DNA of 64,000 bases. Source: Verrucomicrobiota bacterium. GTDB lineage: Bacteria > Verrucomicrobiota > Verrucomicrobiia > Limisphaerales > J093. The notes beneath the pieces are model-generated. The model saw only the letters and a list, made by a program, of their open reading frames with translations. It had not been told where the DNA came from and made no database searches. Of this stretch, positions 1-26,860 are shown one piece after another. A program made the position numbers and the translations under genes. Position 1 is the stretch's first letter. Every line of letters begins with the position of its first letter. Location: the NCBI GenBank assembly GCA_022710935.1, contig JAKLFY010000029.1, positions 1 to 64,000 on the forward strand, read 5' to 3'.

Positions 1-490
1 GGTCATCATCCTCCGCGGAGCGGGTCAGCGCGGACTTATCCCGCGGCGGCGGGACGGCTACGCGGCTTCCGTAGCCGCCGTCGTCAGACGGCGCTGATGA
101 TTGGGGCTGATGATTCTGTCGGGCTGGATTAACAGCCAGGTCCCATTCATGATCCGCCCCGATTCATGAGGAACCTCTTCCCTTTCCGGTTCTTTGCGTC
201 CTTCTGTTGAATTCGCCTCGATTTCATCGTTTCCTCCGGTTCACCTCGCCCGTCATCATCTCTTTGGCTCTTAATCGTAATCCCTTCCCCTAACTTCCTG
301 TCACTGTGAATGGCGACTGGGTCGAGATTACGATTACGATTACGATCAGACGCGGTTTTTTCTAGCCCGCAGCGGTCCGCATTTCGGAGTTAGCGGCTTC
401 GCCGTGATCACAAGTCCGTGTAACATGCGGGCCAGTGTCGCACCGCCCACTGACGCACCGACGCACTGGCTACCGACCTACTGACGTACT
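1..490. repeat. Composite intergenic repeat, copy 1
   Basis: This gene-free stretch is one of three long copies of a mosaic repeat in the window (others near 3950-4560 and 19540-20030). In order it holds a GC-rich palindromic block at about 15-115, with stems GGCTACG/CGTAGCC and GCCGTC-GTCA-GACGGC. A stretch reading like 'ctttgcgtccttctgttgaa' follows at about 195-215. Then AATCGTAATC (about 272) faces GATTACGATTACGATT (about 326), able to pair around a loop of some 45 nt. Degenerate 8-bp repeats of the type actgacgc/accgacgc run at about 445-495. No open frame here resembles a protein. Confidence 0.8.
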
Positions 491-502
491 GACGCACCGC
501 CA

Positions 503-3649: not shown

Positions 3650-4760
3650 GGTGCGTCGGAGCGCTGGTAGCCGGTAGGCAGTGCGTCGGTGCGTCGGTAG
3701 GCGGTGCGTCGGTGCGTCGGTACGTCGGTGCAGCAGGGAGCAGGGAGCGGGGAGCAGGCGGGAAGCGGGGGCAACGCTCAACGTTCAACGTTCAACGTTC
3801 AACGTTCAACTTCCAAACATCAACCATCAACCATTCGATGGCTGTCATCGTCCCGGATTAGACCACAGAGACGCAGCGACGCAAAGAACACGGCTTCCAA
3901 AGAGCCACAGATGAAGACAGATGGCACGGATGAGAATGGGGAGCCCCGGATTGTTTCCCGCGGAGCGGGTCAGCGCGGACTTATCCCGCGGCTGCGGGAC
4001 GGCTACACCGCCGCCGTAGCCGCCGTCGTGAGACGGCGCTGATCAAACATGGATGAGCGGGTTCATTCTGCTCTTACCCGGCTGGATCGACAGACAGGTT
4101 CCATTCATGATCCGCCCTCATTGATGAGGGACTTTTCCCTTTGCGCATCTTTGCGACCTTCTGTTGAATTGGCTCCGATTTCATCGTTTCCCGTGATCCC
4201 CTTCGCCCGTCATCATTTCTTTGGCTCGTAATCGTAATCCCTTCCCCTAACCCGGAAATCTCACCAGTGGGGCGGTCGCGGCATTCCTGACGGTCGGTGG
4301 GTGAGATTTCCGGGGCTTCCTGTCACTGTGAGTAGCGTTCCGGGTCGAGATTACGATTACGAGTAGGATTACGATTACGAGCGGACGCGGTTTTTCAAGC
4401 CCGCAGCGGTCCGCATTTCGGAGTCTCCCGCTTCGCCGTGGTCACAAGTCCGTGCCACATGCGGGCCAGTGTCGCACCGACGCACCGACGTACCGACGCA
4501 CTGGCTACCGACGTACCGCCCACTGACGCACCGCCTCTTTGCGGTTCTTTGCGACCTTCTGTGAAGAATGACCCGACTGGAAGGTGTTCAACAGAAGATC
4601 GCAAAGGAACGCAAAGCAGGGAAGACAAGACACTCGTTTCTTCGCCACCTTCTGTCGAATTGACTCCGATGGTGAGAAATGCGCGCCAGCGTCTGCGATA
4701 AACGCAATTGCGGTTTGCCATCGAAATTGCGAGAATCTGCGTGGTCCTGAGTCCTTGCGA
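3650..4760. repeat. Composite intergenic repeat, copy 2, with short tandem repeats
   Basis: A gene-free 1.1-kb mosaic. About 3655-3730 is an 8-bp repeat (ggtgcgtc). About 3729-3775 is a heptamer repeat (ggagcag). About 3776-3830 is a heptamer repeat (caacgtt, then caaccat). About 3860-3930 resembles 19366-19440 (accacagagac...agagccac.gatgaa). About 3955-4045 is the GC-rich palindromic block with GCCGTC-GTGA-GACGGC. About 4230-4380 carries the facing arms AATCGTAATC and GATTACGATTACGA, here interrupted by a 65-bp insertion (4251-4315). About 4485-4530 again holds accgacgc-type octamers. About 4535-4620 holds facing copies of ctttgcg..ctttgcgaccttctg. Confidence 0.8.
4251..4315. repeat. 65-bp palindromic element nested inside the composite repeat
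   Basis: The two 15-nt ends CCCGGAAATCTCACC (4251-4265) and GGTGAGATTTCCGGG (4300-4314) are exact reverse complements. The other two copies of the surrounding repeat read straight from ...cccctaa into the following sequence (cttcctgtcactg at about 293-305; cttactttcactg near 19876). Here the 65 bp interrupt that junction exactly. This is the pattern expected for a small non-autonomous palindromic element that moved into a pre-existing repeat. I see no obvious target duplication. Confidence 0.75.
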
Positions 4761-4764
4761 GGCG

Positions 4765-5172
4765 GGGGACCCGGCCTACACATGAACGGACACCGATGTT
4801 GTAGGCCGCGTGCCCTCACGCGGCGCGAAGACAGACACCGGTGCGGACGCCGGGTCGGGGGACCCGGCCTACACATGAACGGACAGCGATGTTGTAGGCC
4901 GCGTGCCCTCACGCGGCGCGAAGACAGACACCGGTGCGGACGCCGGGTCGGGGGACCCGGCCTACACATGAACGGACAGCGATGTTGTAGGCCGCGTGCC
5001 CTCACGCGGCGCGAAGACAGACAACGGTGCGGACGCCGGGTCGGGGGACCCGGCCTACACATGAACAGACACCGATGTTGTAGGCCGCGTGCCCTCACGC
5101 GGCGCGAAGACAGACACCGGTGCGGACGCCGGATCGGGGGACCCGGTCTACACATGAACAGACACCGATGTT
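4765..5172. repeat. Tandem array of 93-bp palindromic units
   Basis: The landmark catgaac recurs at 4781, 4874, 4967, 5060 and 5153, an exact 93-bp period. Each unit contains GCCGCGTG-CCCT-CACGCGGC and GCCGGGTC-GGGG-GACCCGGC (one copy ggatc). GGCCTACA and TGTAGGCC lie between them and can pair with each other. Most differences between copies are single bases. The array ends about 25 bp before the glpD start codon, so transcripts of that operon may carry part of it. Confidence 0.95.
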
Positions 5173-5195
5173 GAGCACCCCTCGGTAGTTCGACT

Positions 5196-6707
5196 ATGCA
5201 AAGAGAACAGACATGGAAATGGTTCGGAGAGGCCCCGCTCGATCTGCTGGTGATCGGCGGCGGCATTGTCGGCGCCGGTGTGGCGCGCGACGCCGCGATG
5301 CGTGGGCTGCGGGTGGGATTGGTCGAGCAACACGATTTTGCGTTCGGGACGAGCAGTCGATCGAGCCGCCTGTTGCATGGGGGATTGCGCTACCTGGCCC
5401 AGGGACGCATCGGTCTGGTGCGCGAGGCGAGCATCGAGAAGACGATCGTGCATCGCATCGCGCCGCACCTGGCCGAGCCGCTGCCTTTTCTGTTTCCGAC
5501 CTACCGCGGCAACCGGCATTGGGTGCTGTGGCAACTCAAGATCGGCGTCAAGATCTACGACTTCCTTTGTCGGGGTCGAAACCTCGGGCAGTCGACCTGG
5601 CTCGAGCCGGGCGAAGTGCTGCAGCGGGTGCCGGGTCTGGTCGAGGCGGGTCTGAACGGGGCGGTGCGTTACTACGACGGGTTGACCAACGACGCTCGAC
5701 TGGTTCTCGACACGTTGCGTTCGGCCGCGCGCAGCGGGGCCGGTATCGTCAACTACGGACGGTTCATCGAGGCGACGCGCGCGGGCGATTGGGAATGCCG
5801 GCTCGAGGATTGTCTGACGGGAAACGTGACGCGGGTCCGCAGCCGCGCGCTGGTCAATGCCACGGGGCCGTGGGCCGAGCAGGTCCCGCATAGCCGGGTC
5901 AAACTGCGGCTGACCAAGGGCATACACCTCGTGGTGAGCCGGGATCGGCTCGCCGTGCCCGACAGCGTGGTCATGACCGAGGACAAGCGGATCCTGTTCG
6001 CCATACCCTGGGGCGAACGTGTGATTCTGGGCACGACCGACACCGACTACAACGGGTCGCTCGATCGGATCACGGCGGACGCTTCCGATGTCGCTTATGT
6101 CCTCGAGATCGCGAACCAGTTCTTCCCGCGCGCGCGCCTCGCATCGAGTGACGTCATCGGCGCGTGGGCGGGGGTGCGCCCGCTGATCGCCGCGCCGGGC
6201 GGCAAGCCGTCCGACATCTCGAGGTCGCACGAGATCCGCAATCCGGAACCGGGCTGGTGGGATGTTGCGGGGGGCAAACTGACGACCTACCGGCTGATGG
6301 CCGAACAGACAGTCGATCAGATCGCCCATTGGCTGCAGCGCACCCGGACGCCGCGTCCGGGATTTCGTCCGTGCCGGACGGCCGATGAGCCGTTGCTGAC
6401 GCCTGCCGAGAGCGCCGAGGTCAGCGGGATATTGCCGCCGCCGTTCGAGCGCCGTGTGATCGAGCATTACTGCGCCAACGAATGGGCGGTGCATCTGGAC
6501 GACGTCATGGTCCGGCGGACAAGCTGGCAGTATTACTGTCCGGACGCCCGCCAGCGGGCCGAGCAGGCGGCGGACTGGATGGGCGAGTGCCTGGGCTGGT
6601 CCGAGGCAACGCGCGCCGCCGAGATCAATCGCTACCAGGCCGCCGTGGACCTGGCAGCGATCTCGGGCGACTCCACCGCGGGGAACGGCACCGGAGGCAA
6701 ACGATGA
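5196..6707 (+). CDS. glpD: FAD-dependent glycerol-3-phosphate dehydrogenase
   Basis: A 503-aa member of the aerobic/anaerobic GlpD/GlpA family, which oxidises sn-glycerol 3-phosphate to dihydroxyacetone phosphate and feeds electrons to the quinone pool at the inner membrane. The N-terminal FAD-binding dinucleotide fold DLLVIGGGIVGAGVARDAA (about residues 15-33) is complete. Family motifs FGTSSRSSRLLHGGLRYL, NATGPWA, TKGIHLVV, GTTDTDYNG, GVRPL and GGKLTTYRLMAE follow in order. The C-terminal helical domain typical of GlpD (ADEPLLTPAE onward) is present, and the length is normal. The ATG at 5196 follows the 93-bp repeat array. The stop overlaps the next start (ATGA), so it is coupled to the glycerol-1-phosphate-dehydrogenase-like gene. 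Confidence 0.95.
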   Translation: MQREQTWKWFGEAPLDLLVIGGGIVGAGVARDAAMRGLRVGLVEQHDFAFGTSSRSSRLLHGGLRYLAQGRIGLVREASIEKTIVHRIAPHLAEPLPFLFPTYRGNRHWVLWQLKIGVKIYDFLCRGRNLGQSTWLEPGEVLQRVPGLVEAGLNGAVRYYDGLTNDARLVLDTLRSAARSGAGIVNYGRFIEATRAGDWECRLEDCLTGNVTRVRSRALVNATGPWAEQVPHSRVKLRLTKGIHLVVSRDRLAVPDSVVMTEDKRILFAIPWGERVILGTTDTDYNGSLDRITADASDVAYVLEIANQFFPRARLASSDVIGAWAGVRPLIAAPGGKPSDISRSHEIRNPEPGWWDVAGGKLTTYRLMAEQTVDQIAHWLQRTRTPRPGFRPCRTADEPLLTPAESAEVSGILPPPFERRVIEHYCANEWAVHLDDVMVRRTSWQYYCPDARQRAEQAADWMGECLGWSEATRAAEINRYQAAVDLAAISGDSTAGNGTGGKR

Positions 6708-17038: not shown

Positions 17039-17163
17039 GGGATTCCTTTATCACTCATCTCGTGACCGACCGTGGATTGGAGGCGCGGTCTGGAGATCAT
17101 GTGCGCGAAATTCTGGTGGGGCGGTGGTGGCGAGTCAAGACGCCATTTCTGGCCCGAATCCTC

Positions 17164-17490
17164 GCCCCTCCGCTGCCCAGCTCGTGCACGGGAAGGTGTT
17201 GGAGTGGGGACGTCCTCGTCCCCGGCCAATCGGGTCACGGAATGTGTTCGCGGGCGACCAGGACGTCGCCCCTCCGCTGCCCAGCTCGTGCACGGGAAGG
17301 TGTTGGAGTGGGGACGTCCTCGTCCCCGGCCAATCGGGTCGCGCACTGTGTTCGCGGGCGACGAGGACGTCGCCTCTCCGCTGCCCAGCTCGTGCACGGG
17401 AAGGTGTTGGAGTGGGGACGTCCTCGTCCCCGGCCAATCGGGTCGCGGAATGTGTTCGCGGGCGACGAGGACGTCGCCCCTCCGCCGTGG
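17164..17490. repeat. Tandem array of 104-bp palindromic units
   Basis: The segment cctccgctgccc recurs with an exact 104-bp spacing (its ctgc at 17173, 17277 and 17381), giving three full units and a partial fourth. Each unit carries GGGGACG-TCCT-CGTCCCC and GGGCGACG-AGGA-CGTCGCCC; the first unit has one mismatch in the second stem. The two loops are exact complements. The array separates the downstream end of the purF-like gene from the start of the secreted-protein gene. The remainder of the 17039-17572 gap has no gene. Confidence 0.93.
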
Positions 17491-19224: not shown

Positions 19225-20040
19225 CGTCCGTGGGGCAGGGGGCAGGGAGCAGGGAGCAGGGGGGGGGCAAGGGGGAAGCGGGGGCAACGCTCAACGCTCA
19301 ACTTTCAACTTTCAACCATCAACTATCGACCATCAACCAATTGATGACTGTCACCGTCCCGGATTGAACCACAGAGACAGAGCACGCGGAGAGCACCGCA
19401 TCCAAAGAGCCACGGATGAAACACGGATGGCACGGATAAGCCCCGGAAGTTACGGATTGTTCTTCGCGGAGCGGGTCAGCGCCGACTTACGTCCACGGCT
19501 GCACCCCGTCCGTAGCCGCCGTCGTGAGACGGCGCTGGTCATCATCCTCCGCGGAGCGGGTCAGCGCGGACTTATCCCGCGGCGGCGGGACGGCTACGCG
19601 GCTTCCGTAGCCGCCGTCGTCAGACGGCGCTGATGATTGGGGCTGATGATTCTTCTTCCCGGAGCGGGTCAGCGCGGACTCATCCCGCTCTTGCCGGGCT
19701 GGAACAACAGCCAGGTCCCATTCATGATCCGCCCCGATTCATGAGGAACCTCTTCCCTTTGCGGTTCTTTGCGTCCTTCTGTTGAATTCGCTTCGATTTT
19801 GTCGTTTCCCGCGGTTCCCTCGCCCGTGATGATCATCTCTTTGGCTCTTAATCGTAATCGTAATCCATTCCCCTAACTTACTTTCACTGTGAATGGCGAC
19901 TGGGTCGAGATTACGATTACGAGTAGGATTACGATGACGATCAGGGACAGCGCTTCGTTTGGCTACTGACATACCGCCCACCGACGCACTGACGCACCGA
20001 CGCACTGACGCACCGACGCACTGCCCCCCCATCTCCGATC
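19225..20040. repeat. Composite intergenic repeat, copy 3
   Basis: The gene-free gap between the purF-like gene and the universal stress protein. It repeats the mosaic of copies 1 and 2. A ggagcag-type heptamer run lies near 19235-19262, and caacgct/caacttt heptamers at about 19284-19338. The accacagagac/agagccacggatgaa block is at about 19369-19440. The GC-rich palindromic block occurs twice (about 19455-19535 and 19540-19640). The facing arms AATCGTAATCGTAATC and GATTACGATTACGA are at about 19851-19935, and actgacgcaccgacgc octamers at about 19980-20025. Positions 19540-19655 match positions 2-112 almost base for base. 18974-19224 has no recognisable feature. Confidence 0.8.
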
Positions 20041-25870: not shown

Positions 25871-25980
25871 AACGGGTTCCTTTCAGCCACGGCTCAAGCA
25901 TATCGCCGTTCGCCTGTTTGCCCAAGCGTTTTTCAGGGCCGGGCGAGGCGGTGCATCGGGTTGTTGTCGGTGGGAATCGG

Positions 25981-26860
25981 GCATGCGCCGCGTGGGGGCA
26001 CGCGGCCTACAGCGGGAGTCTGCATTCGTTGTAGGCCCGGTGCCCTCACCGGGCGACTGGGCATGCGCCGCGTGGGGGCACGCGGCCCACAGCGGGAGTC
26101 TGCATTCGTTGTAGGCCCGGTGCCCTCACCGGGCGACTGGGCATGCGCCGCGTGGGGGCACGCGGCGTGCAGCGGGAGTCTGCATTCGTTGCAGGCCCGG
26201 TGCCCTCACCGGGCGACTGGGCATGCGCCGCGTGGGGGCACGCGGCCTACAGCGGGAGTCTGCATTCGTTGTAGGCCCGGTGCCCTCACCGGGCGACTGG
26301 GCTTGTGCCGCGTGGGGGCACGCGGCGTACAGCGGGAGTCTGCATTCGTTGCAGGCCCGGCGCCCTCACCGGGCGACTGGGCATGCGCCGCGTGGGGGCA
26401 CGCGGCCTGCAGCGGGAGTCTGCATTCGTTGTAGGCCCGGTGCCCTCACCGGGCGACTGGGCATGCGCCGCGTGGGGGCACGCGGCCCACAGCGGGAGTC
26501 TGCATTCGTTGTAGGCCCGGTGCCCTCACCGGGCGACTGGGCTTGCGCCGCGTGGGGGCACGCGGCGTACAGCGGGAGTCTGCATTCGTTGCAGGCCCGG
26601 TGCCCTCACCGGGCGACTGGGTATGCGCCGCGTGGGGACACGCGGCGTGCAGCGGGAGTCTGCATTCGTTGTAGGCCCGGTGCCCTCACCGGGCGACTGG
26701 GCTTGTGCCGCGTGGGGGCACGCGGCCTACAGCGGGAGTCTGCATTCGTTGTAGGCCCGGTGCCCTCACCGGGCGACTGGGCTTGCGCCGCGTGGGGGCA
26801 CGCGGCGTACAGCGGGAGTCTGCATTCGTTGCAGGCCCGGCGCCCTCACCGGGCGACCTG
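25981..26860. repeat. Eleven-copy tandem array of an 80-bp hairpin unit
   Basis: The unit starting gc(a/t)tg(c/t)gccgcgtg recurs exactly every 80 bp: 25981, 26061, 26141, 26221, 26301, 26381, 26461, 26541, 26621, 26701 and 26781. Each unit contains GCCGCGTG-GGGG-CACGCGGC and GCCCGGTG-CCCT-CACCGGGC. In between, GGCCTACA faces TGTAGGCC in several copies; variant copies read gtgca/tgcag or ccaca. 80 is not a multiple of three, so the long open frames running through it are not genes. It fills the divergent space between the cytidylate-kinase-like gene and the hydrogenase operon. 26861-27065 shows no further repeat and no clear promoter. Confidence 0.97.

Follow-up and report, generated by a model that had tools for sequence, protein, structure and literature searches.

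Bacterial MITEs derived from insertion sequences, such as the Correia elements and TIMEs, are short, multicopy and non-coding, and share their ends with an autonomous transposase family. Members of the IS1380 family, such as ISEcp1/ISEc9, generate 4-5 bp target duplications, and ISEc9/ISEcp1 is capable of one-ended transposition, the published one-ended ISEc9 event retaining its duplication (PMC12116815). In piggyBac elements, whose outgroup is IS1380, the target is TTAA and only rarely CTAA or TTAG (PMC10813416). Small dispersed palindromes carrying a tetranucleotide tag are also characteristic of REP/REPIN systems with RAYT and of systems with TIR-associated Y1 transposases.

The element described here, S, is a 65-bp palindrome located in the window (the whole 64,000-nucleotide stretch of Verrucomicrobiota DNA that was analysed), and it resembles each of these systems in part. 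Like the MITEs, S is short, multicopy and non-coding, with ends shared with a transposase family, and its long forms have the target duplications of MITEs. Unlike them, solo S lacks these duplications; at no more than 65 bp it consists almost entirely of hairpin, and it forms one module of larger hairpin mosaics. With the IS1380 loci of its order, S shares 15-bp ends resembling CCCGSAWWTYTCAYM and a 4-bp YTAR target, but it carries no internal transposase and no duplication accompanies its short form. S is a small dispersed palindrome with a tetranucleotide tag, as in REP/RAYT systems, but its tag is CTNA rather than GTAG, none of the genome's Y1 genes has S at its borders, and the long forms carry direct duplications. 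The unusual point of S is mainly the existence of lone short copies without a duplicated target site. A limited literature search found no paper on IS1380 MITEs or on comparable MITEs of Verrucomicrobia.

Architecture of S and of its filled and empty sites

The features of the window that bear on S are as follows.

13-501, plus strand: composite repeat copy 1, with an empty site at 293^294 (CCCCTAA/CTTCCTG junction)
3732-4535, plus strand: composite repeat copy 2, broken by S
4247-4250, plus strand: CTAA target tetranucleotide touching the left end of S, of the YTAR/CTNA type, as read in the sequence
4251-4315, plus strand: S, probably the hairpin module from the left end of an IS1380-type miniature element, here standing alone (solo); its right side lacks a target-site duplication
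4251-4265, plus strand: left arm of S, CCCGGAAATCTCACC, a probable IS1380-type terminal inverted repeat
4266-4299, plus strand: 34-bp spacer of S, not conserved between genera
4300-4314, minus strand: right arm of S, the exact reverse complement of the left arm
4315, plus strand: 65th base of S, G here and T in 16 of 22 solo copies; the base after it is C in 18 of 22
19248-19940, plus strand: composite repeat copy 3, with an empty site at 19876^19877 (CCCCTAA/CTTACTT junction)

The first-pass annotation had described a 65-bp palindromic element with perfect 15-nt inverted ends, and this description holds: the arms occupy bases 1-15 and 50-64 of S. Within the 64-kb window, no other such arm pair occurs at a spacing of 10-80 bp, the one exception being a simple repeat of GTTGATGG located at 48.4 kb. 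S is non-coding and contains no IS1380/PF13701 transposase, and an Rfam scan of the window returned no matches.

The composite repeat was said to have three copies, of which only the second is interrupted. Three copies are indeed present in the window, and five more lie elsewhere in the genome (C201:4885, 6340, 8134 and 45920, and C251:16816). Copies 1 and 3 retain the joined site CCCCTAACTT (287-296 and 19870-19879, with 0.02 occurrences expected by chance), and copy 2 reads CCCCTAA, the 65 bp of S, then CTTCC. Among the five further copies, one is filled with S (C201:46007) and four are empty, so that genome-wide, of the eight copies that span the junction, S occupies two, in each case at CCCCTAA, and the other six are empty. 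The two filled copies are ∼15% diverged from each other, and their S inserts are identical over 64 bp. Had S been inherited together with the composite repeat and diverged at an equal rate, such identity would have a probability of about 0.85^64 = 3e-5. The simplest reading is that the two insertions, which look recent and independent from this comparison, went into one preferred target. This agrees with the earlier proposal that S moved after the composite repeat had spread.

Genome-wide copies and longer forms

By BLAST and inspection of the 7.52-Mb draft genome, S was found in ∼43 nearly identical copies of 64-65 bp, at unrelated places and with unique left flanks. The exact 15-mer arm occurs 65 times in the genome, and the same pattern read backwards does not occur at all. 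The S of the window is identical over 64 bp to copies on three other contigs (C251, C229 and C201). The genome search for similar-ended elements and empty sites suggested by the first-pass annotation recovered both, the latter as four further empty composite copies. S is real mobile DNA that has been dispersed and inserted.

S also serves as the left-end module of longer elements, of which S-R measures ∼147 bp and S-P-R ∼283 bp; assignment to the solo or long class was made by hand, on draft MAG-type assemblies. Twelve S copies carry 50-220 bp more after S (most of them S-P-R), and seven carry ∼80 bp more (S-R). P, which lies between S and R, may be present or absent, and a few partial long forms exist (L055, L028). 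Complete long forms terminate in GGTGAGAAATGCGGG, which is related to the left end in inverted form, and in most of them CTAA comes after it. Both P and R are themselves hairpins, as seen in the sequence and, for R, by folding. R is found apart from S at more than 10 places. The 67-bp right-end hairpin R without S (L219-L251) has YTAG or TGATKAG on its left and CTNR on its right, with duplications that are mostly inexact.

Related genomes

Comparison within the genus was made with one genome, G001. At the loci there that are orthologous to three of the solo-S sites (L035, L036 and L053), S is absent. This absence gives the polarity as insertion. Related genomes with the 65-bp form as the ancestral state had been named as evidence against the insertion; this refutation failed, the relative being empty at these three orthologous sites. 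In G001, the genes flanking the window's intergenic region are 91-92% identical but lie on different contigs, and the composite repeat is absent there, so the window locus itself has no empty counterpart in that genome. On G001 contig C166, positions 11-26 kb are dense in composite-repeat pieces and hold one S-P-R element.

S-like elements also occur in G009 and G011, which belong to another genus of the family. Their arms are identical, their spacer differs, and relatives of P and R can be recognised attached to them. One locus of the present genome, L030, is a hybrid of 64 bp, flanked by CTAA on each side, whose right end is of the R type. A long-form ancestor of this hybrid was sought at the G001 orthologue, where unrelated sequence was found. 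At that orthologue (L271, 1290-1500; G001:C169), ∼207 bp of other sequence starts with CTGACTCGAGTATTTCAC and is possibly another miniature element.

Tandem repeats are a separate feature of the window. A 93-bp repeat (4763-5173, 4.4 copies, 97%) lies directly upstream of a glycerol-3-phosphate dehydrogenase-like gene (5196-6707), and G001 has about one to two units at this locus. An 80-bp repeat (25979-26857, 11 copies) has a GTAGGCCGCGTGCCC-type palindrome in common with the 93-bp array, and a 104-bp repeat (3.1 copies, 96%) lies at 17162-17485.

Target sites and duplications

The tetranucleotide to the left of S is CTAA in 26 of 43 copies, CTGA in 6, CTCA in 3 and GTAG in 1. In the long forms, a 4-bp direct duplication is exact in 13 of 18 cases, against a shuffle mean of 7.6 (permutation p = 8e-5, with flank pairs taken from alignments), and the duplications include non-consensus pairs such as CTGG/CTGG and CTGA/CTGA. 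Some long forms (L022, L033, L040 and L063) have flanks that do not match.

The 22 solo copies are preceded by CTAA (14), CTGA (4), CTCA (2), CCAA or CGAA, and not one of the 22 in this genome shows a 4-bp duplication. After the hairpin they mostly continue with T (16/22), then C (18/22). Measured against the empty sites, the right side of S has lost no target in the window, ∼3 bp at C201:46007 and ∼2 bp at L053. At L036 there is no loss and one base is changed, and at L035, which is less clear, several bases are lost. A few solo S-like copies in G009 and G011 do have 4-bp repeats (L211, CTAA/CTAA; L198, TTGA/TTGA). Judged from these flanks, the left end of solo S appears to be placed as in the IS1380-like long forms and the right end to be closed in an unusual way. 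The insertion had been called unambiguous, and insertion is supported; with the expected duplication absent from all 22 solo copies, however, the fact of insertion does not by itself give the mechanism.

The link to IS1380

Ends of the S type, resembling CCCGSAWWTYTCAYM and following a 4-bp YTAR target, are common to the IS1380 loci of the order and to a truncated relic in the same genome. This relic (L075) is a single PF13701 fragment, with an ORF of 140 aa that matches the first fifth of the family, at its N-terminal end. The sequence (C)TTAA followed by CCCGGACTTCTCACC lies 32 bp upstream of the ORF, and there are 2 mismatches between this end and the S arm over 15 positions.

A survey of 320 genomes from the order showed that CCCGSATATTTCAYA-like ends, preceded by CTAG, TTAG, CTAA or TTAA, are a common start of IS1380 relatives. 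With a permissive pattern, an S-like end was found within 450 bp upstream in 21 of 26 IS1380 loci against 5 of 136 control windows, some of the matches being weak. Several of these loci have both ends matched and CTAG, CTAA or TTAA duplicated. The closest intact match to the S arm belongs to L131 (G065), where CCCGCAAATCTCACC and CCCGCATATCTCACC flank a transposase of 504 aa (NCBIfam IS1380, 359 bits) and the target is duplicated (TTAG/TTAG); CCCGCAAATCTCACC has 1 mismatch to the S arm over 15 positions. When a transposase whose terminal repeats match was looked for, as had been proposed, it was identified at the level of the IS1380 family, but this draft genome yielded the truncated relic and no intact IS1380 gene. 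Intact IS1380 genes were also sought in G009 and G011, where S-like copies are most numerous, and set aside, the full-length IS1380 of G009 having no matching ends nearby.

Origin of the solo form

We consider it probable, at roughly 0.65, that S is the non-autonomous left-end hairpin of an IS1380-derived miniature family and that its solo form arose through aberrant transposase events. Since its ends match those of IS1380, S would be a small passenger of that system. An IS1380 (DDE, PF13701) transposase would recognise the 15-bp arms of S as its terminal inverted repeat and set the left end immediately 3' of a tetranucleotide resembling YTAR, in most cases CTAA. Acting in trans, this enzyme would have moved the long forms and presumably also joined the left end of the window S. 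The solo copies would most likely stem from one-ended or abortive events by the same transposase, with the right side putatively closed by repair at the hairpin foot. Several observations count against this reading. Identical S copies point to recent movement, yet no intact IS1380 gene was found in the genome, and normal DDE transposition would leave the duplication that the solo copies lack. The relic's two mismatches to the S arm and the long forms with unmatched flanks also weigh against it. The ISEc9 precedent fails to cover them, since that event kept its duplication. With a truncated relic and no intact cognate transposase, the family may now be stranded, or may be served by a transposase gene outside the assembly.

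The main rival to aberrant deposition, possible if doubtful, is that solo S is a decayed S-R or S-P-R element, inserted with a duplication and then deprived of its right part by a deletion that broke at the hairpin foot, as in replication slippage at a palindrome. Solo and long forms do have the same left target and the same orientation, most solos retain the T-C found after S in the long forms, partial forms exist, and the variable presence of P indicates that modules come and go. However, at the window site, C201:46007, L036 and L053 the far break would have to land ∼0-4 bp from the insertion point each time, and leftover R or body sequence, which should then be common, is not.

That S itself moves as a unit, entering beside CTNA in a single orientation with no duplication, by a pathway unlike that of the longer S-R elements with which it shares an end, is unlikely.

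Mobilisation of S as a hairpin by an HUH/Y1 single-strand transposase, of the REP-associated or TIR-associated type, seems very improbable. It would suit the missing duplications, the CTNA fixed on one side, the fixed orientation and the hairpin form, and the genome has 12 Y1 matches. However, S-like ends adjoin none of these 12 loci (one has a divergent pair ∼1 kb away), the S arms correspond to IS1380 ends, and target duplications accompany the long forms. Instead, inverted repeats of other kinds, for the most part GGG-rich, delimit several Y1 genes, as in TIR-associated genes (PMC3733652), and these other ends speak against the Y1 route. The Y1 genes at L078, L079 and L084 (C179, C194 and C180) have their own inverted repeats, GGGGTCACATCTTC, AACGGGTCAGTTCTTGAT and GGGGTCGCATCT, like TIR-associated tyrosine transposases (PMC3733652).

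The last alternative, an ancestral 65-bp form deleted from the other composite copies, accounts for S lying at the same CCCCTAA in two of eight copies and is hardly credible given six empty copies, identical S in two copies ∼15% diverged, ∼40 unrelated sites with S and three orthologous G001 sites without it.

Significance

Through S, a family of very small verrucomicrobial palindromes is connected with transposons of the IS1380 type. S also provides a clean natural data set, with filled and empty copies in one genome and with long and solo forms that share an end, for the question of how a 65-bp transposon end spreads without the usual target duplication. If S does move alone, a single transposon end of some 65 bp would have turned into an independently spreading parasite.
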